This document shows positions 9,059-61,961 of a stretch of 64,000 nt of DNA, in pieces. The notes under the pieces were generated by a model that was not told the origin of the DNA, ran no database searches, and saw only the letters and a program-made list of their open reading frames with translations. This stretch comes from Profundicola chukchiensis. GTDB lineage: Bacteria > Bacteroidota > Bacteroidia > Flavobacteriales > Weeksellaceae. Positions within the stretch are counted from its first letter, which is position 1; every line of letters begins with the position of its first letter. The stretch covers positions 240,038 to 304,037 of the forward strand of contig NZ_JANAIE010000004.1 in NCBI RefSeq assembly GCF_029664245.1, in the 5' to 3' direction. Made by a program: the position numbers and the translations under genes.

Positions 9059-9523
9059 ATGGAAATAAAAGAACTAAAAGATAGACCTGGCATAAATCAG
9101 TCGACAAAGCTGAATAGTGTTTATGTTCAATTCAATAACCTATTAAATGAGTTGAAGACGAAAAAGTTATCAAATGAAACGCTAAAAGCCATTAATAATG
9201 GAATTGAAAAGTTAAACGCTGTTTCGGATTCAGATAAAGACTTAGCAAAAGAAATAAAAAGTACTCAATCTCATATCATTAAACTCCTTGAAAAAGAGCA
9301 TAAGTTGGTAACCAAAAATCATTATCGCAATCTTTGGTTGGCTCTAGGTATGGCTGCTTTTGGTATTCCGCTAGGAGTAGCATTTGGTGCTGTCCTCGAT
9401 AATATGGCTTTATTGGCGATAGGCTTACCTATTGGAATGCTGATAGGAATTGCCGTTGGTACGCGTTTGGACAAAAAAGCTCTTGCAGAGGGTAGACAGA
9501 TTGATGTAGAAGTAAGGCTTTAA
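9059..9523 (+). CDS. Membrane protein with coiled-coil N-terminus, unknown function
   Basis: This 154-residue protein has a lysine/glutamate-rich, probably coiled-coil N-terminal half (residues about 15-85) followed by two hydrophobic helices (LWLALGMAAFGIPLGVAFG and LLAIGLPIGMLIGIAVGT) rich in glycine-zipper spacing. There is no signal peptide, so the N-terminal half is likely cytoplasmic. I do not recognise a named family. It is flanked by the sigma factor and a MarR regulator but separated from both by more than 120 bases, so it is probably its own unit. Confidence 0.6.
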   Translation: MEIKELKDRPGINQSTKLNSVYVQFNNLLNELKTKKLSNETLKAINNGIEKLNAVSDSDKDLAKEIKSTQSHIIKLLEKEHKLVTKNHYRNLWLALGMAAFGIPLGVAFGAVLDNMALLAIGLPIGMLIGIAVGTRLDKKALAEGRQIDVEVRL

Positions 9524-9608
9524 GGTTATTTGAATTTGGATATTATTTAAGGGTGATATAAGACATTTGCTCAATGTCGCATAAAGCATATAATTGAATT
9601 TAGAGAAT

Positions 9609-40289: not shown

Positions 40290-40358
40290 ATTTAAAAATC
40301 CAACAATTTAAATCAGGGTATAAAACTTGAATACACCATTGAAATCTAAACATCGTTT

Positions 40359-41776: not shown

Positions 41777-41777
41777 G

Positions 41778-41861
41778 TACCCCAGGCGGGACTTGAACCC
41801 GCACGCTCTAATGAGCACAGGATTTTAAGTCCTGCGTGTCTACCAATTCCACCACCAGGGC
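41778..41861 (-). tRNA. tRNA-Leu (anticodon UAA)
   Basis: The minus strand folds as an 84-base class II tRNA: 5' GCCCTGG acceptor strand, D-arm with GGAATTGGTAGACAC, anticodon stem GGACT/AATCC around the loop containing TAA, a variable arm TGCTCATTAGAGCG, T-arm GCGGG-TTCAAGT-CCCGC, and discriminator A. The CCA end is not encoded. A terminator follows directly. Confidence 0.95.
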
Positions 41862-42289: not shown

Positions 42290-42319
42290 GGTATCTCAAT
42301 TAAATATGTAATTATATTA

Positions 42320-42349
42320 ATGACTGCCATAGGGCGGTCATTTTTTTTT
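42320..42349 (+). terminator. Rho-independent terminator
   Basis: ATGACTGCC (42320-42328) pairs with GGCGGTCAT (42333-42341; one G-U pair) around ATAG and is followed by eight more T residues. It ends the transcript that carries the 47-residue frame. Confidence 0.85.
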
Positions 42350-42853: not shown

Positions 42854-45800
42854 ATGAATGATTTTGAAGTTTGGAAATCATATATAGATGCTTTAGATAT
42901 ATTGACAAATCAATATTCTGAACCCTTCGATATTAAGATATTAGAGGCTAAGAAAGATTCGTCAGTTGTTTATAGATATATTGATTCTAATCAAAGAGAC
43001 AAAATATTTAAAGGTTTATTAAAGGTGTTTCCAAATTTAAATAAAGAGAATGTCAATTATCAAGACAACCATCTATTATATCCTTTAGTGGAGGAAATTA
43101 ATAATTCTGAAATTGAGGATTTAAAGTCCTTTGCAGATTCAAACCATTTTGAGTTTTCATCAAAGCCAGCTTTTTCGGGTACTTTCAAATACCCAAAAAC
43201 CCCTTTAATAGATTTTTTAAGAGAACATGTCGTAACAGAAGAGGCTGGACAACAAGAAAAATCATTAACTCATCACATAAAAAAGAAATATCCCAATTCC
43301 ACATACAAGGAGAAAAACAAAGGGAAAATTGTGGTTTTGGATGAGACCTATTTAGAGGGAGTAACAATTAAGGAGTGGGGAACTACGTATTCTTTTGAAT
43401 ACAGACTTTCTGTTAAGGGAATATCTACACCTATTGATATTTCAATATCGTCCGACAATGTTCTAGCTATCACTCATTCTAAGAGAAAAAACAAGTTAAG
43501 CATTAAGCTTCATGAAAGGATTAGTAAAGCTGAGATTGGAGAAATAAGACATAAAATAGCTAAAATCTTAACCGAAAAGATTGGAAGAGTACCCCAAATT
43601 AGCCTGAACACGGTTTTTACAAGAACTAATTTTACTCGCAGGCATAGAGAACAAAATACAACTGTTAATCAAAACCTCGGTAAAACTCAATTTTTAACTC
43701 TAGATGAGTTGAAACATATTGATTCTAAGTTGGAAACGAATCAGGAAGTTTATCGCGAAGAGGTTCTTGGTGCAATTTATAAAATTGATGCAAGTGAAAG
43801 CTTTATAAATAAGCAATTTGATATTGCTGTTAGGTACCTAAAGGAAAATGTTGGATTATTACCTTATAAGGTTGAGGGTTTCTTAAAGCAAATACATTTA
43901 AAGAATGTATTTCTAAAAAAGGAAGCGTTTGAAGCTTTTCAAGAAAACACCTTCTATTCAAATTCATTTCATCTCGTTTCTTACACAATTACTCCAGATG
44001 AGTTTGACAAATTTGAACAGATTAGAAAGCAAAGGAAGATCTATTATAAATCAGAGTACAGACCTAATCTTGAAGGTGTAATATTACCTAATCCGGATAA
44101 CAATGTTTTCATCCAAACCTTTTCCGCATCCATTTCATTAAGTGACTTACAATTTGAAATCTTCTTTTTTCTAAATACGCTTAAACGATATTTTGGAAAA
44201 GAGCATATACAGATTGTTCATGAGCACATTTTTAGAATTGATAAACAAAGGTTCTTCGAACATATTAAAGAAGTTATTCCTTATGAAGAATTTCAGATAA
44301 GTTCAGATGCAAAGACGATTTCTTTCGATTTTAAAACGAAGGAAGAACTAAGTGAAAAACTACAAAAGTTGGACACCTATGATTCTTTGAACTATTTAGG
44401 CTTTGGAGACGATCATAAATACAAAGTAACCTTTGGAAATATAACTCCATTATTCCTAGTCAAGGAGAAATTGGATAAGCTGAACTTTACTAAAACAATT
44501 CTTAATGAATCAGGTAATCAGCTAAAAGTTTATGGGTTGATGTCGGATATTAGTTTACTCCCTATTGTTAGAGCTAATATCGAGAATGCTGCCGGCAATT
44601 TCACTCAAGACAATATACAATTGAATTGGGATGATTTTGATAGAGGTTTCGTAAAATACTATTTCCAATTTGACGAGGAAAGCTACAAAGAAGAAGTGCA
44701 AAAAAAGTTAGAAAATCTTAGAGGTGAGTCATTAACCCATGTTGATTCGAAGAAGACTTTAGGTGTTTTAAAATCCATTTCATATCCCAACTTAACACTT
44801 CTAGTTGAAGACAAAAGTCTTCTTGAAGAAGGGGATTATCTAACAGTTAAAAGTGCCTTAAAGGGTGAAAAAGATAAAGTAAAGCGATTAAGAGATGCTG
44901 TTGAGAAAATATATTCAGATTCGGGAAATTCAATTTGCAATAAGAATTTGAAACAAGCTCTGATTGATTCATCCTCATTGGAATCTTTTATTGATGGAGA
45001 CATTACTCGTACAAATGAATACCAGGAATTATATCAAAAGGTAAATGGTGACCTATTAAGCCCTTATATCAATGAAAGACAAAAGGATGCAATAGTTAAG
45101 TGTTTATTAAGTGATGATCTGTTTATTGTTCAAGGTCCTCCAGGAACAGGTAAGTCAACTGCTATTGCAGAGCTTATTTGGCAACATTTAGCAAATAATG
45201 ATAGCGATAAACGGTACAGAATATTAGTTACTTCGGAAACCAACTTAGCCGTAGATAATGCATTAGATAAGCTCAGAAGTAAGACGCACCTGTTAATGAA
45301 ATCTATACGATTTGGTAGTGAGGAAAAGCTTGATAATGAGGGGAGAAGGTTTTCTTTGGAAGCAATTAATCACTGGAAAAATAATGAATGGGATGGTAGT
45401 GATTCTTTGATTTTAGATGACTGGGTTGATTTAATAAACAGCAGATGTATAAACCAAAGTAATGATTCATTTATTAAGCTTTGGAAAGAGCATTTATCGG
45501 AGAAAGGAAAAGTCCTTAGAGAGAATGTCTATTCTTCTTATATAAAGAATTGTAACGTAATTGGAGCTACTTGTAGTTCAATAGGAAAAATAAACTCAGA
45601 GGGTAGATTTACGCGGTTCTTTCAAGATTTCTCCAATGTTTTTTATCCTAATGAGTTCAAAAAATTCAAATCATCTCCAAGCAGGTCATCCGCAAGTATT
45701 CTTAAAAACAAGAAAATTGAGTTTGAGTTAGTTATTCAGGATGAGGCTTCAAAGGCTTCTCCACCTGAGTTAGCACTACCTTTTACTTTCGCAAAAAAAG

Positions 45801-46774
45801 CCGTGATCATTGGAGACCATAGACAATTACCTCCAATGATTGATACTAATGAGTTTATTGAAAGCTTGATTTATTTAAAGGATAAAAGTAAGGACGATAA
45901 TCAAGTCATAAAAATCAATAAGCTTATTCGTTTTATTAAGCAGCATAGAGAAAGTTTTGAGCTTTCACACTTTGAAAAACTCTTTACAAATATTGATACT
46001 AATCTCAAATCAACATTCGATACTCAGTATAGAATGCACCCAGCTATTAATGAAACTATCAAACAATTCTATAAAGGTGATTTCGAGGATGGAATAGATT
46101 TAGAATGTGGACTTCCATTGGATTCTGTAGATGATCCGAATCTTAACAATCCCATGTCTAGATATCATGGTATCACCAAGAAAAAGGATACACATGTAAT
46201 GTGGTTTGATGTACAAACTCCGGAAATTAAGAAAGGGACAAGTAGAATAAATCCCGGAGAAGTTAAAGCAATTGAATGGATAATTAACACCATTACGTCC
46301 AATGAAAATTATTCTACGTTCATCAATCATTGGAAAGAGAATGAAAAGGATCAAAAAGAATTAGGTGTTATCACTTTTTACGGTGCACAAGCCGGATTAA
46401 TTAAGAAAAATATTCCTGAAGGTATTGATGTTAGAGTGTCTCCTGTTGATAGATTCCAGGGGATGGAAAGAAATATTGTGATAGTTTCTCTAGTAAGAAG
46501 CAACATCATTGCTGAAAACGAGCATCAAGTTCCAGACTATGAAACTTTTGATAATGATTATGGATATGCACTAAATGATTCTCTAGGCTTTGCTGAATCT
46601 CCAAACAGATTAAATGTTGCACTTTCGAGAGCTAAACGTCTATTAATAGTGGTTGGAAACTCGAAACATTTTAGTAGAAAGGAAATCTATAAGAATGTTT
46701 TTGAAACAATGAAGAATCATCCTCAAGGAGAAGTTTGGGATTTTGAAAAACTTATGAAACGTATTGAAAAATAG
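42854..46774 (+). CDS. Superfamily 1 helicase (UPF1/Dna2-like), first gene of a DarT operon
   Basis: This 1306-residue protein has about 750 N-terminal residues of unknown fold followed by a complete SF1 helicase core: Q-like NERQKDAI, Walker A GPPGTGKST (from residue 761), motif Ia with TSETNLAVDN, motif II QDEASKAS (Asp963), motif III GDHRQLPP, motif IV-like QYRMHPAI, motif V with DRFQGMERNIVIVS, and motif VI NVALSRAKRLLIVVG. The order is that of UPF1/Dna2-like 5'-to-3' helicases. The next gene starts one base after its stop, so both are cotranslated. I infer it detects or unwinds nucleic acid of an invader and hands it to the ADP-ribosyltransferase. Confidence 0.87.
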   Translation: MNDFEVWKSYIDALDILTNQYSEPFDIKILEAKKDSSVVYRYIDSNQRDKIFKGLLKVFPNLNKENVNYQDNHLLYPLVEEINNSEIEDLKSFADSNHFEFSSKPAFSGTFKYPKTPLIDFLREHVVTEEAGQQEKSLTHHIKKKYPNSTYKEKNKGKIVVLDETYLEGVTIKEWGTTYSFEYRLSVKGISTPIDISISSDNVLAITHSKRKNKLSIKLHERISKAEIGEIRHKIAKILTEKIGRVPQISLNTVFTRTNFTRRHREQNTTVNQNLGKTQFLTLDELKHIDSKLETNQEVYREEVLGAIYKIDASESFINKQFDIAVRYLKENVGLLPYKVEGFLKQIHLKNVFLKKEAFEAFQENTFYSNSFHLVSYTITPDEFDKFEQIRKQRKIYYKSEYRPNLEGVILPNPDNNVFIQTFSASISLSDLQFEIFFFLNTLKRYFGKEHIQIVHEHIFRIDKQRFFEHIKEVIPYEEFQISSDAKTISFDFKTKEELSEKLQKLDTYDSLNYLGFGDDHKYKVTFGNITPLFLVKEKLDKLNFTKTILNESGNQLKVYGLMSDISLLPIVRANIENAAGNFTQDNIQLNWDDFDRGFVKYYFQFDEESYKEEVQKKLENLRGESLTHVDSKKTLGVLKSISYPNLTLLVEDKSLLEEGDYLTVKSALKGEKDKVKRLRDAVEKIYSDSGNSICNKNLKQALIDSSSLESFIDGDITRTNEYQELYQKVNGDLLSPYINERQKDAIVKCLLSDDLFIVQGPPGTGKSTAIAELIWQHLANNDSDKRYRILVTSETNLAVDNALDKLRSKTHLLMKSIRFGSEEKLDNEGRRFSLEAINHWKNNEWDGSDSLILDDWVDLINSRCINQSNDSFIKLWKEHLSEKGKVLRENVYSSYIKNCNVIGATCSSIGKINSEGRFTRFFQDFSNVFYPNEFKKFKSSPSRSSASILKNKKIEFELVIQDEASKASPPELALPFTFAKKAVIIGDHRQLPPMIDTNEFIESLIYLKDKSKDDNQVIKINKLIRFIKQHRESFELSHFEKLFTNIDTNLKSTFDTQYRMHPAINETIKQFYKGDFEDGIDLECGLPLDSVDDPNLNNPMSRYHGITKKKDTHVMWFDVQTPEIKKGTSRINPGEVKAIEWIINTITSNENYSTFINHWKENEKDQKELGVITFYGAQAGLIKKNIPEGIDVRVSPVDRFQGMERNIVIVSLVRSNIIAENEHQVPDYETFDNDYGYALNDSLGFAESPNRLNVALSRAKRLLIVVGNSKHFSRKEIYKNVFETMKNHPQGEVWDFEKLMKRIEK

Positions 46775-46775
46775 T

Positions 46776-49700
46776 ATGCAAAATATTTTTATCATAGAGC
46801 CAATAAAGATTAGACTTAGAGGGTATAAAACGCTTTTTAGGCGTGCTTTACCTTTGGAAAAATATGAGAAGGCAATTTTAGGGTTGATTCACCAAAATAA
46901 TAGTGTTTTTGGATTTAGTGAACTTGGTGCTGTTTTAGGATTTGCTGTTGAGGATAATCCTAATCTTCATATACGAAAGGATATCGCTGAAATACAACTC
47001 TTTGAATCATATCTTAAAAAACTAAAGACCAGTCATTTAATTGAATACAACAGCCAAAGTATTCAATTAACTTTTTGGGGAGAGAAAGCAATAAATGACG
47101 ATTGTAAATATTCGTTTTACTCAGGAAACATTCAAATTCCGGAGTTTTTTGATATTGAGCTCTCGAATGAAGCATCCAATTTCACATTTAAAGAAATTGG
47201 TGTTGATGTTAGATTAACAAATGAGCAGAATCTAAATAAGGCTTGGGACTTAGCCGAATTAGAAGCTCCAGACACTAATCTTGTTAATCAATTCCAAATG
47301 AATAGGTTAAAAAAGAATGATGAGATAATATTTGATAATATTGAACCTCTATCAAACCTGGAATTGATAGAAACGAATTTACAGTTTTCAGAAAGTAATA
47401 ATTCGGTTAATGTAATATATGAGAGCAAACTTCATGAACAACTATCAAAAGAAATTAATAAAGATCCTAACATTTTAAAAGCGGATTATCTCAAACTAAT
47501 GATTAGATGTAAAAGATTGGTTGAATCTAAAGAGGCTTTTTTAATTGATGAATTAACTGATTTTATATCAATTATTGATTGGAGTGAAGTTCTTGAAAAA
47601 CCAAATATTATATGGAACAATAACTCTATTGATTTACTTGAAAAATTTCAGGTTAATTGGAATCTTATAAGTTCTAAGACACCTGTTTCCATAATTCAAG
47701 ATACAATAGATTCTTATATTGAAAAATTTGATTGGCTAGAATTAACTAATCGCCTAAATATTGATTTTATACTAGAAAATATTGACAAGTATCCTTGGGA
47801 TGTTGATGTTTTAACTGATAGAGTAACATTAGACAATTTTAAAGACCATTTTTCAAGTATCACAAAGCTACAAGGTATTGATCTTAACAGTTTCTATGAA
47901 CAAGTTGATAACGAATTTATAAAACAGAATTTCGATCAATTGCCTAACATTACAACTTACTTATCAATTAATAACACGAATAAACTTCTAGAATTTCTTT
48001 TAGAACATGCAGATGCTCATTGGAACAAAACTTTAATATCTCAGAAATTAAGTTTGTCAGAAATTGAATCTAATTTTTCAGCACTCAAACAGAATTTGAA
48101 TTTCGATATTGTAATTGAACGCTTTATTACTAATAGCTATGATTGTAATATTGAAATTTTTAAAGAAACAATTTCTTTATTATCATCTTCTGATAATTCT
48201 AAAATCCTCAATAGATTTTCAAAATGCAATCTTAGCTTAGATAAACTACAAATTTTAAACAACCATGGATTAATATATTGGGGGAATGAAGTTGCTCCGG
48301 GATTCGAGTTAAACGCTTTTCAGGATTGGTCCATGGAAATCGTAAAAACATTTGAGGGTAAATGGGACTATGATGAGTCTATCAAATATTTGAGTGGTAA
48401 TATAACTGATCCGAAGATAATAGATGAGTTAAATTTTGAGTGGGATTTTGTAGCTATATCAAAAAATAGTCATTTAGTAAATCATGAAAACTTTTTCGAA
48501 GAGAATAAAAGTAGGTTAGATGTTAATTCAGCGATTCATGTATTTGAAAAGAATACCCTTAAATCCAATTTAAGAAGTCTTTTTCTGCTAGATCAGGTAA
48601 AGAAGATAGAAGACCTGCCAGTCGTAATCTCTAGGCTATTTAGTCTTAATGATATAATAGAAACAAATACCAACCTTGGAGATTTATTACTTGGTATTTC
48701 AAGTGAAATTGATTGGGAGCAAATCTGGTCAAAAACACCGAAATCTTTTGTTAAACAACATATCGAAGAAACGTTTTACCTTATAGAAAGCATATCTTCC
48801 TTTAGTTCATTATTGACAAATATCTCTAATTGCTTTGATGTAGGGGAAGTATTTGAATTACTAGATTTTGGATGGGATTGGAGCAGTATTACCGAAAGAG
48901 CAATTGAAGAGGGCTTAGTCGATGATGAAACATTAGTGAGCTATTCAGGGTATTGGGATTGGGAAGTATTGATTAAAAATTATTTCGATCCAGAAGATTT
49001 GCAAATTGAAGGTAGGCTTTCAGAGATTGCAGATTTGATTTCACAAGCTTCAGATGAAGTAATTGAGAAATCATGGAAGCTTATTACGGACTTTTATCCT
49101 TCTCACTCTATTTGGCATGCTATCAGCACGACAGAAACAAATGTAAAATTCAAGTGGGATTGGAATAGTATTAGTTCCTCAAGTAAAATATCCTTAAATC
49201 TTAATTCACTTCATAGATATAAAGAAAGAATTAATTGGTCATTATTATCTAGTAACTCTTTCTTGAACGGGTTTTTTAGGTACAACCGTGATATATATGG
49301 CTCTAGAAGACAATGGGAAAATTATGTTTTATCCTACTTATCAGAGTTTGCAGAGTTATGGGATTTTAAACAATTATCTAAGCTAAACAACATTACACGT
49401 AGCCAGACCATTGTAAATAACTTTAAAGAAAAATGGGATTGGGATATTCTGTCTTCTGAAAAATCTAAACTTCTTACAATTAAAAATAAGGAAGGAGTAT
49501 TTTTTAATGAACGCTTATTCCAAAAATTCGAGAGGTTTATCAATTTTGAAGTCATATCCCGTCGCAAGGATGCCTTGCTTGATGTTGAAATACTGAATAA
49601 GTTCAATGATAAAAATTGGGATTGGAAAGTATTATCTAGCAACGCAAGTTTAAAAATTAAGAAGGAAATCTTACTGAATGAATTGTTTGAAAAACCTTGG

Positions 49701-51533
49701 GATTGGAAGATCTTATCTAATAATCCTACTATTCCATTTACAAATGATGATTTACTACAATTAAGAGATAAAGATCTTGATTGGAGCTATTTCTCTACGA
49801 AAGAATGGCTGGATAACTCAACGATTATTGAATTGTCTCATAAAAATTGGGATTGGTATGCTATTTCAAGTAATAATCAATTAATTTTTGATCAGAATTT
49901 ATTAAGAGTATTATGTAACAAGGAAGTTGTTAATTGGGGTAATATTTTAAGTTCGAAAAACTTACACTGCAATGAAAAGACCATTGGAATAATTGCAACA
50001 ACTATTAAAGATTCGCAAGAGTATTGGTCCACTCTTTCTAGCAATCAAAATCTAAGTTTTGAAAATAAAATTTTATTAGATAAGTATAGAGAGTTTTGGG
50101 ATTGGGATATTCTTATTGAGTCAAACAAAATTGACGTAAACTCTGAATTAATTCTAAGGGAATACCAAAGTTATATTAATTGGACTGCTCTTTCCTCTGC
50201 TTCAAGTTTTAATGCAGATATCTCAATTCTTAATGAATTTAAAAACCTGTTGGATTGGAAGTATGTTACAGCTAAAATTCCTTTGAGTGATCAACTACTT
50301 GAGAAATTCAAATCGCATATAGACTGGGAAATTTTATCAAGGATGCATGATTTCAGTGGTAAATTATCTTTAATAAAACGGTATTCTGAATTTATTGATT
50401 TTGAGAAACTAGAAAACAACCCAACAATTGACTACGAAATAAGTCTTTATATAGGAAAGTATCTAGAAGAGAATACCAAAGCAAGATTTTTATACTCAAT
50501 TCAGAAACAAAACAATGAATGGGCTGGTAATGCGTTTCATTTCACTCATATTGATAACGCTGTTAAAATAATAAGAGAGGGTAGAATTAAATGTAGAAAA
50601 GAAGCTGAGCAGCTTTCGGATTCTGCAGGAAACGTAGTTTGGTCAAACTTAAAACCACACAATTATGCACGATTTTATTTTAGACCACATACGCAAACGC
50701 AATTTTATAATGAATTCCTAGGAGTTGACATAGACAAAGGATACTACAATAGTATGCGTGAATATCATTCATTTTATGATAGTGAATATACAATGTTAGG
50801 TTTTCCAAAATGTCCCATACCAATTTATTTTATTTTTCCTTTGAATGAAATATTTCAAACCCACCGGATTAAAATTAGTTCAGGAAATATGCAGAAAAAT
50901 AGTACTAAATTCGGATATCTAAATGAAATGTATAGCCAGTTTAACTTCAATGATTTATTTATTTATCCAGAAAAAAGTAAGGAAGATTGGAAAAAATACA
51001 GAAATTATGCTCAACAAGAATTGCTTATTGAAAGTGAGTTTGATTTTTCGTTGTTGAATAATTACAAAATTGTTTGTCACAATGAGCAACATAGACAATT
51101 ATTAATAGAACTATTAGGCGCTGATAGTATCGATTATATAAATAAAATAAAAGTTGATTCATCTTATTTCAGAAATGAAAATCCAAGTGTTTCCATATTA
51201 AAAAAGAACAATACATTTTCTATTTCTACAAATCGTAAAGCAAAGGGGTATTTCGAAATGAACTTTACCGATTCAAATGATATTCATAATTTAGAAGGTG
51301 ATGTAATAGATAAACAAGATAAGCAAGTCAGATTCAGATCTCATCTTAACCTTACAATTTCGAAAAGGATTGCTGAATTTGAAATTTATTATTGTGATGA
51401 AAATAAACAAAAATGGTTTATTCATGCAAATCATGAACTTGACAATAACTTGAAGGACTCAATCAGCCATTTGAAAATAAAAAAATCACATTATTTATTA
51501 TCTCGAGAGAAAATTGCTGAACATTTATGGTAG
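46776..51533 (+). CDS. WDW-repeat protein with C-terminal DarT-like ADP-ribosyltransferase domain
   Basis: This 1585-residue protein has three parts. Residues 1-110 look like a winged-helix domain. Residues about 190-1245 are built from at least 20 degenerate units of about 35-45 residues, each with a W/I/L-D/N-W-x-x-(L/I)-S core (for example WDWKVLSSN, WDWKILSNN, INWTALSSA). Residues about 1250-1440 match DarT: HFTHIDNAVKIIREGRI, the NYARFYFRPHTQT segment, ISSGNMQKNST, and QQELLI with Glu1415 at the catalytic position. DarT enzymes ADP-ribosylate thymidine in single-stranded DNA. A DarG-like macrodomain gene overlaps its 3' end by 7 bases. I chose ATG 46776 over the in-frame TTG at 46764, which lies inside the helicase gene. 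The long repeat array is unlike stand-alone DarT, which is about 200 residues. Confidence 0.82.
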   Translation: MQNIFIIEPIKIRLRGYKTLFRRALPLEKYEKAILGLIHQNNSVFGFSELGAVLGFAVEDNPNLHIRKDIAEIQLFESYLKKLKTSHLIEYNSQSIQLTFWGEKAINDDCKYSFYSGNIQIPEFFDIELSNEASNFTFKEIGVDVRLTNEQNLNKAWDLAELEAPDTNLVNQFQMNRLKKNDEIIFDNIEPLSNLELIETNLQFSESNNSVNVIYESKLHEQLSKEINKDPNILKADYLKLMIRCKRLVESKEAFLIDELTDFISIIDWSEVLEKPNIIWNNNSIDLLEKFQVNWNLISSKTPVSIIQDTIDSYIEKFDWLELTNRLNIDFILENIDKYPWDVDVLTDRVTLDNFKDHFSSITKLQGIDLNSFYEQVDNEFIKQNFDQLPNITTYLSINNTNKLLEFLLEHADAHWNKTLISQKLSLSEIESNFSALKQNLNFDIVIERFITNSYDCNIEIFKETISLLSSSDNSKILNRFSKCNLSLDKLQILNNHGLIYWGNEVAPGFELNAFQDWSMEIVKTFEGKWDYDESIKYLSGNITDPKIIDELNFEWDFVAISKNSHLVNHENFFEENKSRLDVNSAIHVFEKNTLKSNLRSLFLLDQVKKIEDLPVVISRLFSLNDIIETNTNLGDLLLGISSEIDWEQIWSKTPKSFVKQHIEETFYLIESISSFSSLLTNISNCFDVGEVFELLDFGWDWSSITERAIEEGLVDDETLVSYSGYWDWEVLIKNYFDPEDLQIEGRLSEIADLISQASDEVIEKSWKLITDFYPSHSIWHAISTTETNVKFKWDWNSISSSSKISLNLNSLHRYKERINWSLLSSNSFLNGFFRYNRDIYGSRRQWENYVLSYLSEFAELWDFKQLSKLNNITRSQTIVNNFKEKWDWDILSSEKSKLLTIKNKEGVFFNERLFQKFERFINFEVISRRKDALLDVEILNKFNDKNWDWKVLSSNASLKIKKEILLNELFEKPWDWKILSNNPTIPFTNDDLLQLRDKDLDWSYFSTKEWLDNSTIIELSHKNWDWYAISSNNQLIFDQNLLRVLCNKEVVNWGNILSSKNLHCNEKTIGIIATTIKDSQEYWSTLSSNQNLSFENKILLDKYREFWDWDILIESNKIDVNSELILREYQSYINWTALSSASSFNADISILNEFKNLLDWKYVTAKIPLSDQLLEKFKSHIDWEILSRMHDFSGKLSLIKRYSEFIDFEKLENNPTIDYEISLYIGKYLEENTKARFLYSIQKQNNEWAGNAFHFTHIDNAVKIIREGRIKCRKEAEQLSDSAGNVVWSNLKPHNYARFYFRPHTQTQFYNEFLGVDIDKGYYNSMREYHSFYDSEYTMLGFPKCPIPIYFIFPLNEIFQTHRIKISSGNMQKNSTKFGYLNEMYSQFNFNDLFIYPEKSKEDWKKYRNYAQQELLIESEFDFSLLNNYKIVCHNEQHRQLLIELLGADSIDYINKIKVDSSYFRNENPSVSILKKNNTFSISTNRKAKGYFEMNFTDSNDIHNLEGDVIDKQDKQVRFRSHLNLTISKRIAEFEIYYCDENKQKWFIHANHELDNNLKDSISHLKIKKSHYLLSREKIAEHLW

Positions 51534-52219
51534 TAAAAACTATTAAAGGAAATTTTTTTAACTCTAAGGCCCAAACGATTGTAAATACAGTCAATTGTGT
51601 TGGCGTGATGGGAAAAGGAATCGCTTTAGTATTTAAATTAAGATACCCTAAAATGTTTGATTTGTATAAGGATCATTGCCAATCAAAGCTTATTGGAATA
51701 GGAAAATTATGGCTGTACAAAGGTGAAGAAAATGCACCTTGGGTTTTAAATTTTCCAACTAAATTTCACTGGAAGCATCCGAGTAAAATGGAATATATAG
51801 AAAAAGGGTTAAAGAAATTTTGTTCAAGCTATAAAGACCAAGGAATTACTTCCATTGCCTTTCCACTTCTTGGAACAGAAAATGGTGGATTAGATAAAAA
51901 AACTGTTTTAAATTTAATGGAAAAGTATTTAAGCAAGTGTGATATTGATGTAGAGATTTATGATTACGTGCCAGAAGCAGATGATGACCTGTATGAATAT
52001 TTTGCTTCTAAATGGTTAAAATTGAGTCTCGAGGAAATCAAATTAAAAACAGGAATGAGAAAAGATAAAATTGAGAAGATTACTGAATTGGTAGAATCTG
52101 GCGCGGTTAAATCAATGATAGGATTAATTAACGAAAAAGGGATAGGTATTAAGACTATGGAAAAGTGCTTTCAATTCGTAATGAATAATAAAAATGAACA
52201 ATTGACATTGTTTGAATAA
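51527..52219 (+). CDS. DarG-like macrodomain protein (antitoxin)
   Basis: The first 155 residues of this 230-residue protein form a macrodomain of the DarG type: IKGNFFNSKAQTIVNTVNCVGVMGKGIALVFK, then PTKFHWKHPSKMEYIEKGL and IAFPLLGTENGGLD. DarG hydrolases remove ADP-ribose from thymidine in DNA and so counter DarT. The last 75 residues are helical and end in QLTLFE; the long C-terminal domain of classic DarG is missing. Its ATG overlaps the toxin-domain gene by 7 bases, so translation is likely coupled, keeping antitoxin in step with toxin. Antitoxin function is inferred from the family. Confidence 0.87.
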   Translation: MVVKTIKGNFFNSKAQTIVNTVNCVGVMGKGIALVFKLRYPKMFDLYKDHCQSKLIGIGKLWLYKGEENAPWVLNFPTKFHWKHPSKMEYIEKGLKKFCSSYKDQGITSIAFPLLGTENGGLDKKTVLNLMEKYLSKCDIDVEIYDYVPEADDDLYEYFASKWLKLSLEEIKLKTGMRKDKIEKITELVESGAVKSMIGLINEKGIGIKTMEKCFQFVMNNKNEQLTLFE

Positions 52220-53789: not shown

Positions 53790-56700
53790 ATGGAGCCAGT
53801 ATCAATTACAATTATAACATACGTATCTCTCAAGTTTGTTGATCAATTTATAAAAGAAGAAGGTTACGGACCGCTAAAGAAATTTTTCTTCCCAACAAAA
53901 AAGTATCAAAATAGACTGGTTAAAATTATATATGAAACAGTTGAGGAATTTGAGAGAAAAAATCCAACAAAAACCGCTTCCAACAAGTTCCCTTTTTATC
54001 ACTCCCAAATATTGTTTGATGAACTAAACAAGTATATTCTATTCAACAATTCACAAACCGATTATGGTTCTGTAATTGAATTATTGAAAGATAACTCCAA
54101 CATTTTGATTCCTAGAACTAATGAATTGGAAGCATTTTATGGAATTTTCACAGAAAAGATTAACAATGACAGCAATCTGAAGAAGCTATTTATTGAAGAA
54201 AATTACAAGGCCAAAATCTTTGATTTAGGTGAAAGTATCAATAGGATAGAAAGAAAACTTGATACAATAAGTTCAACTGTTCAAACTCTTCACTCCGAAA
54301 CGACATTTCAACCTGATCAAAAATGGTTCATTGAGCAATGTAAATCATCAATTGATGACCTTGGAAAAAGGTACACTCCTGAGCTAAATGTAAAACTTGA
54401 AGTATCTGAAATATTCGAAGGCCTAGGAAGAACCGAACAATTTAAAAGGAAAGTAACAAAGCAATTTGATCAGTTTCTGATAAAAGGAAAAAAAGTATTA
54501 AAGAATCAACCTGAAATTAAAGAAAGTCTTGAGAGTTTAGAAAATGCCTTTGATGAATTACAGACTTTGTTTCAAAGTACTGATTTCTTAGGAACTGCAC
54601 CAATTCCGATAAATGACTTTGAAGACTTATTGAACAAGTCTGAAAGCTCTGTTCAAGGTATTTATGACTATTATATAACTGAAGAACATAAAGTCCAAAA
54701 AGAAAAAAATGACTACCAATATTATCATAAACACGGTACTGAATTAAGAATTATTAGAGAGTTTGAACACGAGCTTTCTACTTTTAAAAATTTAATTCAT
54801 AGCTCCTCATTCAAACTTGCGAACAATCCTTTTTTATTACTAGATGGTGAAGCTGGCATTGGGAAATCACATTTGATTGGAGATATAGTTTCAAGGAGAA
54901 TTAATAAAGAACATGAAAGTGTTTTTCTTCTCGGTCAACATTTTGTTACGGAAGAAGATCCATGGACACAAATTTTCAAAAGACTTCAAATAAACTCTAA
55001 GTCCGCAGATTTTCTCAGAAAATTAAATAAACGAGCGGAAGAGTCAGGAAAGAGAATGGTCCTTTTTATTGATGCAATCAATGAAGGAAAAGGGAACTAC
55101 TTCTGGAATGAGTTTATAAAAAGCTTCATTAATGAGATAAAGAAATATGAATGGCTTGGTCTTGTATTGACTATAAGAACCTCTTACAAGAAGTTAATTT
55201 TCCCTGAAGAAGAAAGAACTGGCTTAGGCATTGTTGAACATCATCATTATGGATTTAGGAATATCGAATATGAAGCAAGCAAATTGTTTTTTGACAATTA
55301 CAGCATTGAACTGCCTAATGTACCACTGTTGCATCCAGAATTTAAAAATCCACTCTTCTTAAAACTATTTTGTGAGGGAATTAATAAAGCAGGATTAACC
55401 CGTATCCCAGATGGTCTTCAAGGCATAACTTCAATTATTAACTTTTTCGTCAAAAACGTCAATGTTGTTTTATCAAAACCAAAAAGAGTTGGGTTCTCAG
55501 ATAGTTTAAACTTAGTACAAAAATCCATTAATGCTTTAATAAAGTACAAAGTAGATAATGAACTTAGATATGTTCCATATGAACAAGCTTATGAAGTCGT
55601 CAATGAATCTATTTCAAGTTTTATCGACAAAAAAGGATTTATAGATGAATTAATTACAGAAGGTGTATTATCAAAAAACCTCTTTTGGAAAGAATCGGAT
55701 GATTATGAAGAAGGAGTTTATTTGGCCTACGAGCGATTTGAGGACCATTTAACTGTTCAGTACCTGCTTGAGCAATATCCTGAATTAGAGAAAGAGTTTA
55801 AAGAAAATGGCAAACTCTATAAATATGTAGAAAATGAAAACGCAGTTTATAGGTATAAAGGACTAATTGAGGCTTTGTCAATTCAGATTCCTGAAATCAA
55901 AGGTTATGAGTTTTATAGCCTTATTCCTGATCTAAAGGATAAATATCCAATTGTTGAGTCTTTTGTTGAAAGTTTACTTTGGAGAAAGGTAGATACCATT
56001 AATGAAGAGTCAAAGAAATATGTAAATGAACATGTATTATCCTACCAAAGTACACATGATTATTTCTGGGAAACTATTCTTGCAGTTACAGCAATCCCAG
56101 ACCATTTCTTCAATGCCCGCTCTTTACATAATCATTTACTAAAGTTCACACTTCCTGACCGAGATGCAAATTGGACACAATTGCTCAAATACAAATATGA
56201 TAATGAATCATCAGTAAAAAGGCTTATTGATTGGGCATGGAGTGAAACAGACAAATCGCACATCTCGGATGAATCAGTTTTACTTTCGAGCATTACCTTA
56301 GCATGGTTTCATACTTCTACAAACAGAGAGCTTCGAGACTGTTCTACAAAAGCAATGATTTGTTTGCTTCAAAACAGAGTTCATTTACTTATTGAATTAC
56401 TCCAAAAGTTTGAAACGGTAAATGACCCATACGTTTATGATCGTTTGTTTGCCGTTGCTTACGGTTGTGCAGTGAGAACAAATAAGAAAGAGGAATTAGT
56501 AGACCTAAGTGATTATATATACGTAACCATATTTAAGGATAAAGATGAAGTTTATCCCCATGTTCTACTTCGTGATTATGCAAGGGGAGTAATTGAGTTT
56601 ACAAGTTTTTCGGGTATTGAGTTACCTTTTGATATTGAAGATGTAAGACCTCCATACAAAAGTTCATTTCCTCAAAAAATCATGACTAATGAGGAGATTG

Positions 56701-58034
56701 ACAAAAAATACAAATTCGATTATGACGCCAAGGATTTCAAAAAGCACTATTGGTCTCAGAATTCGATTCTTAGTTCAATGACAACCGAGTACGGTCGAGG
56801 TACTGGTGGATACGGAGATTTTGGAAGATACACTTTTGAAAGTGCTTTAAGGTCATGGGATGTTAATACTAACCAGCTTAGTAATCTTGCTATAGAGTGG
56901 ATTTTTGAAAAATATGGTTATGACGTAGAAAAACATGGTAAATACGATAGTAACACAAGCTCATCTGACAGAAGAGCATCAACAATTGAGAGAATTGGCA
57001 AAAAGTACCAGTGGATTGCTCTTTACGAGATGATAGCGCGAGTTTCGGACAATTTCAAGAAATATGAAAGATGGAGTTTTGAAAAGGAAAAAGAAGTGCC
57101 ATACCAAGGTCCTTGGGACCCTTACATAAGAGATATTGATCCGACATTGCTTATTAGCGAAACAGGAAGTTATGATGATGACGAGCCTCAAGATTTCTGG
57201 TGGGTTAATAACAAATTATTTAATTGGGACTGTACAAACGAAAGCTGGGTAAATGATTCAAGTGTACTGCCTAAAATGGAAGAAATCATCCAGGTTAAAG
57301 ATGATATGGGAGAAGAATGGTTGGTATTGGAGGGATACCCATCTTGGTCAGAACCAAAAAAAATTGGAGAAGAAAAATGGGATCAACCACATAAAGAGCT
57401 ATGGTGTCATATTAGAAGTTATCTAGTTAAAGATGATGAGTACAACTCGTTTAAAGATTGGGCTATCGAACAGGAATTCATGGGGCGTTGGATGCCTGAA
57501 AGTGGTGACAGATACGAGATGTTCAGCAGAGAATATTATTGGTCACCTGCTCAGGACTATTTTATGACTGAATATTTTGGAGGCACGGAATGGACAGAAG
57601 TCTACGACAGAGAATCAGGTAAATTTGTTGCAGAGGTAAATGTAACCGCACAAGGTTTTTTATGGGAGGAAGAATTTGACAACTCGAAAGAGGAAACGAT
57701 TAGCTTTTTAAAACCAAGTACTGTTATTCACAAGGGTATGGATTTAAAATATAGCCAAAGAGAGGGTGAGTTTATAGACAATTCAGATATGGTTCAATGT
57801 TTTGCAGCAAATGTTTATCATGATTCAAAATCTTATCTTCTTGTTAGGAAACGTTCTTTTTTAAAGTTTCTATGTGAAAACAAATTAAAGGTTATTTGGA
57901 CGATACTAGGAGAAAAGCGAATTATTGGCGGACGATCATTCGGAATTGAAAATCAAGGAAGATTAGAAATTAGCGGTGCTTATTATTTTGAGAATGAAGA
58001 ATTGGACGGAACTATTACAACAAAGAAAACCTAA
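53790..58034 (+). CDS. STAND NTPase, Avs-like defence protein
   Basis: This 1414-residue protein has an N-terminal helical region (1-300, including a coiled coil near 150-170), a STAND/NACHT-type P-loop domain with Walker A GEAGIGKSH (from residue 353) and Walker B FIDAINEGKG (Asp428), a sensor-like LVLTIRTSY, and a long C-terminal part. The DAxNE form of Walker B and the size fit the Avs group, which recognises phage proteins with the C-terminal half and triggers an N-terminal effector. Here the N-terminal effector is not a recognised nuclease or protease. The C-terminal 400 residues are unusually rich in tryptophan and acidic residues. It appears to be a single-gene unit. Confidence 0.78.
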   Translation: MEPVSITIITYVSLKFVDQFIKEEGYGPLKKFFFPTKKYQNRLVKIIYETVEEFERKNPTKTASNKFPFYHSQILFDELNKYILFNNSQTDYGSVIELLKDNSNILIPRTNELEAFYGIFTEKINNDSNLKKLFIEENYKAKIFDLGESINRIERKLDTISSTVQTLHSETTFQPDQKWFIEQCKSSIDDLGKRYTPELNVKLEVSEIFEGLGRTEQFKRKVTKQFDQFLIKGKKVLKNQPEIKESLESLENAFDELQTLFQSTDFLGTAPIPINDFEDLLNKSESSVQGIYDYYITEEHKVQKEKNDYQYYHKHGTELRIIREFEHELSTFKNLIHSSSFKLANNPFLLLDGEAGIGKSHLIGDIVSRRINKEHESVFLLGQHFVTEEDPWTQIFKRLQINSKSADFLRKLNKRAEESGKRMVLFIDAINEGKGNYFWNEFIKSFINEIKKYEWLGLVLTIRTSYKKLIFPEEERTGLGIVEHHHYGFRNIEYEASKLFFDNYSIELPNVPLLHPEFKNPLFLKLFCEGINKAGLTRIPDGLQGITSIINFFVKNVNVVLSKPKRVGFSDSLNLVQKSINALIKYKVDNELRYVPYEQAYEVVNESISSFIDKKGFIDELITEGVLSKNLFWKESDDYEEGVYLAYERFEDHLTVQYLLEQYPELEKEFKENGKLYKYVENENAVYRYKGLIEALSIQIPEIKGYEFYSLIPDLKDKYPIVESFVESLLWRKVDTINEESKKYVNEHVLSYQSTHDYFWETILAVTAIPDHFFNARSLHNHLLKFTLPDRDANWTQLLKYKYDNESSVKRLIDWAWSETDKSHISDESVLLSSITLAWFHTSTNRELRDCSTKAMICLLQNRVHLLIELLQKFETVNDPYVYDRLFAVAYGCAVRTNKKEELVDLSDYIYVTIFKDKDEVYPHVLLRDYARGVIEFTSFSGIELPFDIEDVRPPYKSSFPQKIMTNEEIDKKYKFDYDAKDFKKHYWSQNSILSSMTTEYGRGTGGYGDFGRYTFESALRSWDVNTNQLSNLAIEWIFEKYGYDVEKHGKYDSNTSSSDRRASTIERIGKKYQWIALYEMIARVSDNFKKYERWSFEKEKEVPYQGPWDPYIRDIDPTLLISETGSYDDDEPQDFWWVNNKLFNWDCTNESWVNDSSVLPKMEEIIQVKDDMGEEWLVLEGYPSWSEPKKIGEEKWDQPHKELWCHIRSYLVKDDEYNSFKDWAIEQEFMGRWMPESGDRYEMFSREYYWSPAQDYFMTEYFGGTEWTEVYDRESGKFVAEVNVTAQGFLWEEEFDNSKEETISFLKPSTVIHKGMDLKYSQREGEFIDNSDMVQCFAANVYHDSKSYLLVRKRSFLKFLCENKLKVIWTILGEKRIIGGRSFGIENQGRLEISGAYYFENEELDGTITTKKT

Positions 58035-58634: not shown

Positions 58635-60119
58635 ATGATTACTGGAGAAACTAAAAGTAAAATAGATAGAATATGGAACGACTTCTGGACTGGAGGTATT
58701 TCTAATCCATTAACTGTCGTAGAGCAGTTTACCTATCTTATCTTCATAAAACAATTAGACGACAAACAGATTCTAATGGAAAAGCAGGCCAACCTATTGG
58801 GTGTGCCGATTGAGAAGCCTATCTATACCGAAGAGCAAAGTCCATTGCGTTGGTCTAATTTTAAGAATAAGGATCCAGAAACCATGTTTGACTTGTTTAC
58901 CAAGCAACAGCGTGAACTGAATGACATTACAGCTTTTGATTTTATGAAAACCATCGGAGCTGAAGGTGGTGAGTTTGCAAGGTTTATGAAGGGGGCTATT
59001 TTTATGATTCAATCGCCTAAGTTGTTAGATAAAGTGGTGCAACAGATAGATGAGCTACCTCTAGACAACAGAGATACCAAAGGTGATTTATATGAATACA
59101 TGCTTTCTAAGATTGCTGAAGCAGGTACCAACGGACAGTTCCGTACGCCGCGCCATATCATCAATATGATGGTAGAAATGACGCAGCCTAAAAAAGATGA
59201 TATCATTTGCGACCCAGCATGTGGTACAGCAGGGTTTCTAGTTTCTGCGGGTGAGTATATTTATCATAACCACAACGATTGGTTTCAAGACAAAACTTTT
59301 AGAGAGCACTTTAGCGAAAAGATGTTTAACGGTATCGAATTCGATCCTTCTATGTTGCGTATTGCAGCTATGAATTTGCAATTGCACGGTATCGAAACGC
59401 CTGTGCTTATTGGTAAAGATGCCTTGAGCGAGGCCAATGCTGGCATTGAAAACGAATACACCATAATTCTAGCCAATCCACCTTTTAAAGGAAGTTTGGA
59501 CTATGATGAAGTAGAGAGTAGTTTGTTGCAAACCACCAAAACCAAGAAAACAGAATTACTGTTTTTGAGTTTAATGTTGCGTACCCTAAAGGTAGGAGGA
59601 CGAGCTGCTGTAATTGTACCCGATGGAGTTTTGTTTGGAAGTTCTAGAGCCCACAAGAGCATAAGAGAAGAATTGGTCAACAACCAAAAACTAGAAGCCG
59701 TTATTTCTATGCCTTCTGGTGTGTTTAAACCTTATGCTGGAGTTAGTACGGCCATTTTATTCTTTACCAAAACCAATTCTGGCGGAACAGACAAGGTTTG
59801 GTTTTATGATATGCAGGCCGATGGATATAGTTTAGATGATAAGCGTTCTGAGATTAAAGACAATGATATACCTGACATCATAGAACGTTTTAAAAATTTA
59901 GAAGCCGAAGCCCATAGAGAGCGCACCGACCAAAGTTTCATGGTACCTCTAGAGGAGATTAAAGAAAACGATTGGGATTTATCTATCAACCGATATAAGG
60001 AAATTGTTTACGAGGAAATTGAGTATGATGCTCCTGAAACTATAATTGATTCTATTAAGAATATAGATAAGTCTAGGAAGGATGCAATGTCTAATTTGGA
60101 AAAAATGATGAACTTATGA
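58635..60119 (+). CDS. hsdM: Type I restriction-modification methyltransferase subunit HsdM
   Basis: This 494-residue adenine methyltransferase subunit has the N-terminal HsdM helical domain, the AdoMet motif DPACGTAGFLVSAGEY (near residue 196) and the catalytic NPPF motif (ILANPPFKGSLD, near residue 280). With HsdS it methylates the recognition site; with HsdR the complex cuts unmodified DNA. Its last four bases overlap the hsdS start. An eroded copy of its first 82 bases lies at 89-170. The long leader carries the TTGGAC site 3. Confidence 0.96.
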   Translation: MITGETKSKIDRIWNDFWTGGISNPLTVVEQFTYLIFIKQLDDKQILMEKQANLLGVPIEKPIYTEEQSPLRWSNFKNKDPETMFDLFTKQQRELNDITAFDFMKTIGAEGGEFARFMKGAIFMIQSPKLLDKVVQQIDELPLDNRDTKGDLYEYMLSKIAEAGTNGQFRTPRHIINMMVEMTQPKKDDIICDPACGTAGFLVSAGEYIYHNHNDWFQDKTFREHFSEKMFNGIEFDPSMLRIAAMNLQLHGIETPVLIGKDALSEANAGIENEYTIILANPPFKGSLDYDEVESSLLQTTKTKKTELLFLSLMLRTLKVGGRAAVIVPDGVLFGSSRAHKSIREELVNNQKLEAVISMPSGVFKPYAGVSTAILFFTKTNSGGTDKVWFYDMQADGYSLDDKRSEIKDNDIPDIIERFKNLEAEAHRERTDQSFMVPLEEIKENDWDLSINRYKEIVYEEIEYDAPETIIDSIKNIDKSRKDAMSNLEKMMNL

Positions 60120-61246
60120 AGTATGTTACTTTAAAAGAAATTTCAAATAATGGATTGTTTAAAGACGGGGATTGGATTGAAAGTAAAGATCAAGATAAAG
60201 ATGGTAATGTTAGATTATTGCAGTTAGCAGATATTGGTGTTGGGATTTTTTTAGATAAGTCTTCAAAGTTTATTAATCAAAATACCTTTGAATCTTTAAA
60301 ATGTACAGAAATTAAGAAAGGTGATATTCTCATTGCAAGGATGCCCGATCCTATTGGAAGAGCTTGTTTATTCCCTATTGAGAGTTCTGAATTTAGATAT
60401 ATTACAGCTGTTGATGTTGCAATATTAAGAGTTAATAATGATGTTGACAATAGGTATGTATGTTATATATTGAATAGCCCTTCTATGCTCTCAGAAAGTT
60501 CTAGACAAAGTACTGGAGCTACTAGGAAAAGAATTTCAAGAAGCAAATTAGCTAAATTCAAAATCCCTCTTCCCCCATTAGAAACCCAAAAGAAAATTGC
60601 GGCCATTTTAGACGAAGCCGATAAACTTCGCCAACTAGACCAACAACTCATCGAAAAATATGACGAGCTAATACAAAGTTTATTTTTGGATATGTTTGGG
60701 GATCCTGTAACGAATCCAAAGGGATGGGAGAAGCTTAAGTTCTTAGAAATATTCAATTATACAACAGGTAAGCTTGATAGCAATATGGCTGATATTGATG
60801 GTAAATATCCCTTTTTTACCTGCGCTAAAGATGTTTTCAGAATTAATCAATTCGCTTTTGATCAGGAGGCTCTGCTATTGGCAGGGAACAATGCAGCTGG
60901 AATATATGACGTTAAATATTATAAAGGAAAGTTTAATGCCTACCAAAGAACATATGTCTTAACATTAATTAATAAAAAATCAACCTATCCATTTTTTAGG
61001 TTTCATTTAGAAAGTAAACTAAAGCAACTTCAAAATGTATCTATAGGTTCAGGAACTAAATATTTAACGTTAAAAATTTTGAGCCGATTAGAATTTATCA
61101 ATCCACCGATCGAATTACAAAACCAATTCGCAGAACGTGTTGAAGCGATAGAAGCCCAGAAAGCTTTAGCTCAACAAAGTTTAGAAAAAAGCGAAGAATT
61201 GTTCAATAGCTTGTTACAAAAAGCTTTTAAAGGAGAATTGGTATGA
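60116..61246 (+). CDS. hsdS: Type I restriction-modification specificity subunit HsdS
   Basis: This 376-residue specificity subunit has two target-recognition domains (about 1-150 and 200-330), each followed by the conserved helical repeat: PLPPLETQKKIAAILDEADKLRQLDQQL after the first and PPIELQNQFAERVEAIEAQKALAQQSL after the second. The linker GDPVTNPKGWE marks the start of the second domain. The recognised sequence cannot be deduced. The start overlaps hsdM by 4 bases, and its stop overlaps the lipoprotein gene by 4 bases, so the three are coupled. Confidence 0.94.
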   Translation: MKYVTLKEISNNGLFKDGDWIESKDQDKDGNVRLLQLADIGVGIFLDKSSKFINQNTFESLKCTEIKKGDILIARMPDPIGRACLFPIESSEFRYITAVDVAILRVNNDVDNRYVCYILNSPSMLSESSRQSTGATRKRISRSKLAKFKIPLPPLETQKKIAAILDEADKLRQLDQQLIEKYDELIQSLFLDMFGDPVTNPKGWEKLKFLEIFNYTTGKLDSNMADIDGKYPFFTCAKDVFRINQFAFDQEALLLAGNNAAGIYDVKYYKGKFNAYQRTYVLTLINKKSTYPFFRFHLESKLKQLQNVSIGSGTKYLTLKILSRLEFINPPIELQNQFAERVEAIEAQKALAQQSLEKSEELFNSLLQKAFKGELV

Positions 61247-61836
61247 ATCTGCTAAGGATAATCTTTGTTTGCTTCCTATTCATCTGTACACAGGCTTGTA
61301 AAGAGTCTTCAGCTAGTTCTTATAGCAATTTTGATGATGAAGAAAGCTATACTTATGAAGAGGAAGAAGAAGCCTATCCAGATGATACCTATTGTGCTGA
61401 TGTTAAATACTACAATCCAGATACAGGAGCCAGAAGTAATTTTACTTTAAATGTGGAAGTTGAGGATAATGAAGTTACGGTTATCCATTTTTTTACGGGT
61501 TGGTTAGATGGTAGCGAATTTTCTTCTCAAGACTTAGATAGCAATGGATACTGTTCTATAAGACTATATGATGGTAGAAAGTTTGAAGTCCAAATTACAG
61601 GATCAGAATGCAGCTATACGGATGGTTATAAAATTCAAAATGATATTGATGACGAAATAGCAGAAGTTACTTGTCCGAGATGTGGATCTTCCAAATACAG
61701 TTATGATGATTATTGTGATTCATGTGAAGACGAGATAGAAAATACTTGTTCTAGATGTGGTGGTTATGAGTATTATGTAAATGGAGGACTTTGTAGCGAC
61801 TGTAAGCGTGATGACGAAGAAAATGATGATTGGTAG
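61243..61836 (+). CDS. Predicted lipoprotein with zinc-ribbon tail inside the hsd operon
   Basis: This 197-residue protein has a signal peptide with lipobox-like CTQAC (about residue 19) and a run of acidic residues, then a small beta-rich domain, and a C-terminal part with two CxxC pairs (CPRCGSS with CDSCE, and CSRCGG with CSDC) that look like zinc ribbons. Its start overlaps the hsdS stop by four bases (ATGA). A lipid-anchored zinc-ribbon protein is unexpected between hsdS and hsdR. It may be a passenger gene or an accessory factor. Whether zinc ribbons function outside the cytoplasm here is doubtful, so the signal-peptide reading needs caution. Confidence 0.7.
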   Translation: MNLLRIIFVCFLFICTQACKESSASSYSNFDDEESYTYEEEEEAYPDDTYCADVKYYNPDTGARSNFTLNVEVEDNEVTVIHFFTGWLDGSEFSSQDLDSNGYCSIRLYDGRKFEVQITGSECSYTDGYKIQNDIDDEIAEVTCPRCGSSKYSYDDYCDSCEDEIENTCSRCGGYEYYVNGGLCSDCKRDDEENDDW

Positions 61837-61961
61837 TAGCTAAGCTTAATTAGCCCAAGTTGAATTAATATATTTTTCGTGAAAAGCTTTGGTTTTTAGT
61901 TCAATAAATATGGTTATCAAATCTTTTCTTAGTAATTTAAAACTTTAATTAGCCAAAAGTT

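Follow-up and report, generated by a model that had tools for sequence, protein, structure and literature searches.

DarT toxins are familiar as one half of toxin-antitoxin pairs. The described systems that come closest to the locus reported here are DarTG2, Mokosh type I, for which a NERD domain is given (PMC10952713), and Hachiman (HamAB), in which a helicase restrains and then activates the effector (PMC12278908). The locus is an operon of three genes on the + strand of a 64,000-nucleotide stretch of Profundicola chukchiensis (contig NZ_JANAIE010000004.1, positions 240,038 to 304,037; hereafter the window, to which all coordinates of its features refer), and encodes a superfamily 1 (SF1) helicase, a long protein with a DarT domain in its C-terminal part, and a macrodomain protein. 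By the sequence and model tests made, the trio stands between Mokosh and DarTG and is a member of neither. The system is real, conserved and defence-like, and a helicase-DarT-macrodomain trio is named in no literature entry found, judging by the titles and abstract starts among the matches listed, with most subscription journals and bioRxiv lying outside the coverage.

All three open reading frames (ORFs) are open, and their coordinates agree with the tight coupling, lengths and spacing reported in the original prediction, which had been made from the sequence alone. Gene 1 (42854..46774; 1306 aa) is separated by a 1-base gap from gene 2 (46776..51533; 1585 aa from the ATG, or 1589 aa from an alternative TTG start 12 bases upstream), which overlaps gene 3 (51527..52219; 230 aa) by 7 bases. 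The helicase core of gene 1 (residues 739-1271; 45068..46666) is delimited by the Pfam domains AAA_11 (3e-34; residues 739-912) and AAA_12 (7e-38; residues 1036-1271) and contains the motifs GPPGTGKS (761), DEASK (963), GDHRQLPP (987), QYRMHP (1058), RFQGMERN (1200) and NVALSRAK (1254); all of them show strong conservation across 29 aligned helicases, that of the window among them. Its top PADLOC match is MkoA (PDLC03920; 3.2e-95 in two stretches, 318 bits). The label 'UPF1-like' given to it earlier is right in kind, the NCBIfam model of the IGHMBP2 family (TIGR00376) matching at 8e-58, below the cut-off of that model. The N-terminal half contains a variable block defined by sequence comparison (residues ~101-280; 43154..43693), within which residues 141-280 show 14-24% identity or a gap in P0139, P0141, P0143, P0146, P0147 and P0149; the remoter parts of these six helicases are mostly 70-99% identical to those of the window protein. 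The trio thus resembles Mokosh type I in that an SF1 helicase with MkoA as its best PADLOC match is followed directly by a partner gene, but it differs in its effector, a DarT carried on a repeat region of ~1000 residues, and in its third gene. No MkoB or PLD match was found in the 1585-aa protein, no PLD or NERD domain was detected by Pfam in the proteins of the window, and none of the three proteins of the trio matches NERD in Pfam at E 1.

The protein search returned 132 homologues of gene 2, and 111 of the 120 listed align over at least 91% of the query; relatives of gene 2 already bear the name 'DarT ssDNA thymidine ADP-ribosyltransferase family protein' in NCBI records. The protein begins with an adaptor domain (residues 10-150; 46803..47225), which is winged-helix-like by weak matches and, by a profile search, is shared with the PIN and PLD-like partners described below. 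It is followed by a region of W-D-W repeats (residues ~250-1235; 47523..50480), recognized by the repeat pattern and by invariant Trp residues in alignment A1. The description 'repeat-armed' fits at the protein level, where the unit is W-D/N-W and the part covered by the structure model (residues 1085-1235) comes out as helical repeats, and a search of the region for tandem repeats in the DNA found none. The DarT domain (residues 1254-1453; 50535..51134) was identified by Pfam PF14487 (2.8e-11, above gathering), by alignment and by modelling, and apart from it Pfam gives nothing for gene 2 at E 1. Residues 1240-1466 model as a DarT fold with the DNA-modifying DarTs as the closest folds, so that the earlier assignment of DarT to the C-terminal part stood up to the structure check. 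A C-terminal beta domain (residues ~1470-1553; 51183..51434) was seen in the model, and it is after this domain that additional HD domains come in relatives.

The residues H1255, T1257, N1261, H1295, Y1301 and E1415 align with H13, T15, N19, H65, Y71 and E160 of DarT2, which supports the choice of Glu1415 as the catalytic residue in the original prediction; PMC9967889 is among the bases of these correspondences and of the macrodomain Lys/Trp comparison below. The position of the catalytic Arg51 of DarT2 is occupied by Asn (N1291) in the window protein, an assignment that depends on the alignment. This position could be read in 115 of the 120 listed relatives (window included), being Arg in 108 and another residue in seven (P0001-P0007), and Asn is found in the window protein and its six nearest relatives. 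The locus shares with DarTG2 the DarT fold, the equivalents of H13, Y71 and E160, and a macrodomain partner with the catalytic Lys, but it differs in the 1585-residue carrier, the helicase upstream, the Asn at the Arg51 position, and the lack of the DarT-binding domain that forms the C-terminus of DarG.

This last difference concerns gene 3, for which the call of a DarG-like macrodomain was upheld: Pfam Macro (PF01661; residues 3-149) matches at 8e-18, and DarG is the sole PADLOC match at E 0.1 (6e-57). The Lys and Trp of the macrodomain (K80 and W83 in DarG) are present as K79 and W82 in the sequence FPTKFHW, and the Lys, which is that of DarG and TARG1, is retained in all 29 aligned macrodomain rows. 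The DarG models cover only the macrodomain (positions 2-149 of 338 and 2-147 of 329), gene 3 lacks the C-terminal domain of DarG, and the tail is unlike those of the DarG-like proteins at loci L040, L041 and L045. The tail carries a motif that reads GIG in 23, GVG in one and IIG in two of 26 aligned rows from chassis loci (defined below), and which on our own reading, with sub-threshold Pfam and NCBIfam matches, appears helix-hairpin-helix-like and DNA-binding-like. Additional domains occur in relatives. Among the 120 listed gene 2 homologues, 49 have a tail of >80 residues past the alignment, and HD[ILV]GK is present in 48 of these; the Pfam HD model is sub-threshold in the tail of P0019 (0.0049) and absent from that of P0008. 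At loci L012 (8685-10037) and L020 (8728-10080), a related HD domain resides at the N-terminus of the macrodomain protein and not at the end of the DarT protein (Pfam HD 0.0016 in L012, below gathering). An HD domain attached to either protein probably adds a second enzyme; neither arrangement is present in the window trio.

A scan of GTDB species genomes identified 44 loci, 37 of which (L002-L035 and L037-L039) contain the part of gene 2 that precedes DarT (hereafter the chassis). L036 has the DarT part only, and L040-L045 encode small DarTs, all six with a macrodomain gene in the locus. The helicase gene lies upstream in 32 of 32 testable chassis loci and the macrodomain gene downstream in 34 of 35, the contig reach having excluded L013, L015, L025, L033 and L037 from the former count and L013 and L032 from the latter. 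The L033 contig extends 1.2 kb upstream of gene 2 and starts in an open frame of 392 residues that has no match to gene 1; this frame was taken for a helicase extension because the helicases of the near relatives L023 and L024 extend that far past their matching part. The helicase of L029 is ~0.8-1 kb distant, and L035 and L038 have broken frames. In the 26 loci with clean ORFs, the gaps range from -104 to +8 bases between the first two genes and from -50 to +46 bases between the second and third (starts of the longest ORFs). Since it recurs in nearly all testable loci, the three-gene arrangement is not due to chance, and the linkage across genomes on which the original prediction was to be judged was found. 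L027 is the only testable chassis locus without a downstream macrodomain gene; by eye, its Spirosoma genome has an ordinary DarT-DarG pair elsewhere. A Hymenobacter plasmid carries the helicase and the DarT protein, and no macrodomain match was found on the whole plasmid.

By record title, 33 of the 37 chassis loci belong to Bacteroidota, and the other four (L003, L012, L031 and L034) name other groups, labels that in our judgement may be binning errors. For L003, whose record is titled Erysipelothrix, this is likely; its helicase shares 98.7% identity with the one in G253, which belongs to the same order as the window genome. The distribution is patchy: among 59 relatives only the genome of the window has the system, and within a sample of 395 genomes of the phylum any match was found in six and a match to the full protein in three (its own genome, G185 and G253). 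Phage records gave no match, and one viral contig (L046) matches, with a middle gene that spans two frames. Plasmid matches in Acinetobacter and Salinibacter (L047 and L048) were set aside, as the repeats alone match there and neither locus has a trio of this kind.

A role in defence, which had been proposed, is supported by the context of the loci. PADLOC models of 313 families match 128 neighbour proteins at 1e-10 versus three families for 77 control proteins, a comparison that counts families and not proteins with a match, between sets of unequal size. The neighbour set was reduced from 171 candidates to 133 (up to five per locus, each of up to 1000 residues) and to 128 by removing the five of L036, and the controls came from eight stretches of four genomes, a system of the same class being present in three of these genomes. 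The 25 neighbour families listed include BrxL, PglZ (BREX), Argonautes, type I restriction-modification and GajB, and the window trio itself has Avs2 beside it.

Comparisons within gene 2 reveal a boundary between the chassis and DarT at residues ~1240-1250 (50493..50525), defined by a drop in identity. The window protein is mostly ~65-90% identical to P0008-P0027 along the chassis, except in the variable or dimorphic blocks, and the identity falls to about 50, 37 and 30% across DarT and the terminal part; versus P0002-P0006, 70-86% identity is kept over residues 1281-1440. P0002 and P0009 are 95-100% identical up to residue ~1200, then 72% and then 29-38%. In trees built from 34 rows out of the 120, the chassis group is rejected by the DarT tree (approximately unbiased test, p 5.5e-37), and the chassis tree, a quick one built without a mixture model and in which long branches meet (P0033 with P0034, and P0074 with the rest), rejects the group with window-type DarT (p 1.8e-44), also when it is joined with P0035, P0037 and P0038, its nearest DarTs (p 7e-5). 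Seven changes of DarT type were counted. The repeat region also contains a dimorphic block with two alleles (residues ~721-800; 48936..49175). Among 29 rows, allele A accompanies window-type DarT in three and the other type in 19, and allele B in three and three, respectively, with one row unclear; all four combinations are thus observed.

The loci L003, with a DarT of the Asn type, and L059, with one of the Arg type, illustrate the exchange at the DNA level. In sampled 20-codon windows they are 88-100% identical at residues 641-860 and 1161-1240, 80% at residue 1241 and 52-73% from residue 1251, and at the amino acid level their helicases are 98.7% and their macrodomain proteins 97.0% identical, so that helicase and macrodomain protein are unchanged while DarT differs. 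Between the window and L059, the synonymous differences amount to a fraction of 0.84 in DarT, 0.76 at residues 721-800 and 0.34-0.41 elsewhere in the chassis. The identity drop, the conflict between trees and the allele combinations mark DarT as a cassette which, on these sequence comparisons, is replaced by recombination at its domain boundary. The presence of the same macrodomain protein beside both DarT types in one pair of loci, together with the window, suggests that it is able to remove the product of either type.

The adaptor domain is not confined to DarT proteins. Profile A1, built without such proteins, matches (1.1e-17) the N-terminal end of a protein of 740 residues in genome G281 (L063; 9794-12016) that ends in a PIN domain (PIN_4, 7.4e-22). 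The helicase that precedes it shares 37% identity with gene 1 in the core (MkoA, 329 bits), a value comparable to the 36-52% shown by the helicases of other DarT systems outside the near relatives. Adaptor profile A4 added a fifth genome, G273 (L069), in which the helicase matches MkoA (4.4e-112, 374 bits) and the partner (754 residues; 7260-9524) has a PLD-like part that matches MkoB (6.3e-7); as Pfam gives nothing for this part at E 1, it was read as PLD from the MkoB match and by eye. The helicase, adaptor and partner of L069 constitute a second likeness to Mokosh type I. A profile rebuilt without L063 finds L063 at 2.9e-24 and L069 at 3.5e-12, the best of the rest among 169 entries being 0.41. 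In total, the adaptor was found in five of the 395 sampled genomes of the phylum (three with DarT, one with PIN and one with the PLD-like protein), and a draw of 395 genomes from the order gave the same five. Both non-DarT operons end with a gene of ~210 residues without clear family and an IetA-like AAA ATPase, and no macrodomain match was found in either.

The adaptor is linked to Mokosh solely through L069, since the N-termini of the better MkoB matches L070 and L071 were negative (hhalign against A4, probability 0.4%, with two near-identical sequences only). Of 296 genomes, 40 match the MkoB model, for the most part in its second half, and 76 match the MkoA model, chiefly through frames of 630-690 residues; we read these as generic PLD domains and housekeeping helicases, respectively. 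The adaptor was found in none of seven stretches around long helicases from the MkoA list (L130-L136; best E 0.12). A search with residues 250-1240 for a chassis with another effector listed 43 proteins, and those without a precomputed DarT Pfam domain were dismissed as exceptions: P0028 (1137 aa) stops before DarT, P0124 ends early in DarT, and in P0129 DarT and HD are legible by eye. DarT also occurs on other carriers. In genome G426 (L061; 9195-16351), DarT and, by eye, an HD domain are joined to a sacsin/HSP90-like ATPase domain (sacsin, 2.2e-8) in one protein, and the next gene encodes a macrodomain protein with a fused HsdM_N; at L036, DarT is carried by a Sel1-repeat protein and has a macrodomain gene in the locus. 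In genome G392 (L062; 8973-11465), a PIF1-type helicase forms a fusion with W-D-W repeats resembling those in gene 2.

The reading that we favour, with confidence slightly above an even balance, is that of a Mokosh-type sensor helicase, an adaptor-repeat protein that holds DarT inactive, and a macrodomain protein predicted to erase stray ADP-ribose. We infer its trigger, gating, substrate and outcome as follows. The helicase would sense infection when viral or damaged nucleic acid engages it, and an ATP-driven change would travel via the adaptor and the repeats of the long protein, which would keep its C-terminal DarT off until this signal arrives. Once free, DarT would ADP-ribosylate thymidines in single-stranded DNA, and the modification would stop the phage, or the cell as a whole, from replicating. 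The macrodomain protein, which has a DNA-binding-like tail, would erase stray ADP-ribose from host nucleic acid and set a threshold. This working model of a sensor helicase restraining a separate effector is the point of likeness to Hachiman; the effector there is a nuclease, and no HamA or HamB model is among the PADLOC matches of the window proteins at E 0.1.

In the original prediction, the helicase unwinds invader DNA and supplies DarT with single strands, the repeats serve to position it, and invader DNA alone is modified. DarT does work on single-stranded DNA (PMC11543638), the helicase motifs are intact, and L062 joins a PIF1-type helicase to the same kind of repeats, yet we regard this version as unlikely. 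The same helicase type is paired with PIN and PLD-like partners, which argues that exposing thymidines is not its general role; no finding points to discrimination of invader DNA, and the presence of a macrodomain protein dedicated to erasure suggests a risk to the nucleic acid of the host. The swap data agree better with a sensor whose effector can be exchanged than with a helicase specialized in exposing the DarT substrate. The DarT fold, Glu1415, the linkage and the defence context of the earlier interpretation hold, whereas its dedicated exposer fits less well, and the parts of the earlier architecture are correct but its modularity, the kinship with MkoA, the HD domains of relatives, the Arg51 change and the non-DarG tail were missed.

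It is rather improbable that a UPF1/Mokosh-like helicase senses or tracks viral RNA, on which DarT modifies uracil and the macrodomain removes U-ADP-ribose. The proximity to MkoA and the altered Arg51 position are in keeping with this, as are the description of Mokosh as degrading viral transcripts (PMC11291487) and the reversal of uracil ADP-ribosylation by TARG1-like macrodomains including DarG (PMC13036486). However, DarG is weaker than TARG1 on uracil and is read as DNA-directed (PMC13036486), the nearest folds are DNA-modifying DarTs, and the macrodomain tail looks DNA-binding-like on our own reading. An ordinary DarTG toxin-antitoxin pair with a long regulatory part on the toxin and the helicase as a passenger would explain why DarT adjoins a DarG-type macrodomain gene, and DarTG systems are often found beside phage defence elements (PMC11543638). 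We consider this quite improbable, given that the helicase is present in every one of the 32 testable loci and is accompanied by the adaptor even without DarT, that the macrodomain protein lacks the C-terminal domain of DarG, and that two systems have no macrodomain gene in cis. UPF1/IGHMBP2-type helicases and TARG1-like macrodomains also have housekeeping roles, but a host repair or growth-control system is very improbable in view of the patchy occurrence (only the own genome among 59 relatives, and any match in six of 395 genomes of the phylum), the mosaic alleles and the defence-gene neighbours.

Beyond the sensor-helicase reading of the trio itself, we tentatively propose, with somewhat less than even confidence, a helicase-gated immune class whose warheads can be plugged in. 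DarT, PIN or PLD-like effectors would all be driven by a single SF1 helicase type and a single adaptor, DarT-macrodomain pairs would also be mounted on sacsin-like and Sel1-repeat sensors, and the warhead would be exchanged at a fixed seam; the window DarT, without the Arg51 equivalent, may use a new chemistry or a new base, with the same macrodomain partner serving both DarT types. At this locus, DarT forms the replaceable terminal part of a larger machine and stands next to a helicase of a type that Mokosh also has. If the proposal is true, the locus would offer a testable case of a helicase licensing a DNA-tagging effector, L003 and L059 would be a natural allele pair differing chiefly in the effector, and the boundary would be a seam where evolution swaps immune effectors. 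The Arg51 change provides a test of the proposed DarT mechanism.

Upstream of the operon, a terminator-like hairpin (42319..42342, + strand) was found by a consensus scan that gave four matches versus 4.5 expected by chance, the other two + strand matches (46830 and 49564) falling within gene 2. Further upstream are a tRNA-Leu (taa) gene (41777..41861, - strand) and, by eye, two SGNH-hydrolase-like proteins and an MBOAT-like acyltransferase (37221-41666). Downstream, a 288-residue ORF (52726-53592) without Pfam, PADLOC or NCBIfam match separates the trio from a full-length Avs2 homologue (53790..58034, + strand; NCBIfam NF041813 above cut-off and PADLOC Avs2), a STAND-type ATPase that belongs to the same cluster and lies 1.6 kb downstream, outside the trio. 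The cluster continues with type I restriction genes (58635..63998, + strand) for HsdM (N6_Mtase, 2e-68), HsdS (Methylase_S, 7e-36), a small ORF (61243-61836) and a helicase-type subunit, taken by eye for HsdR, that is cut by the end of the window.
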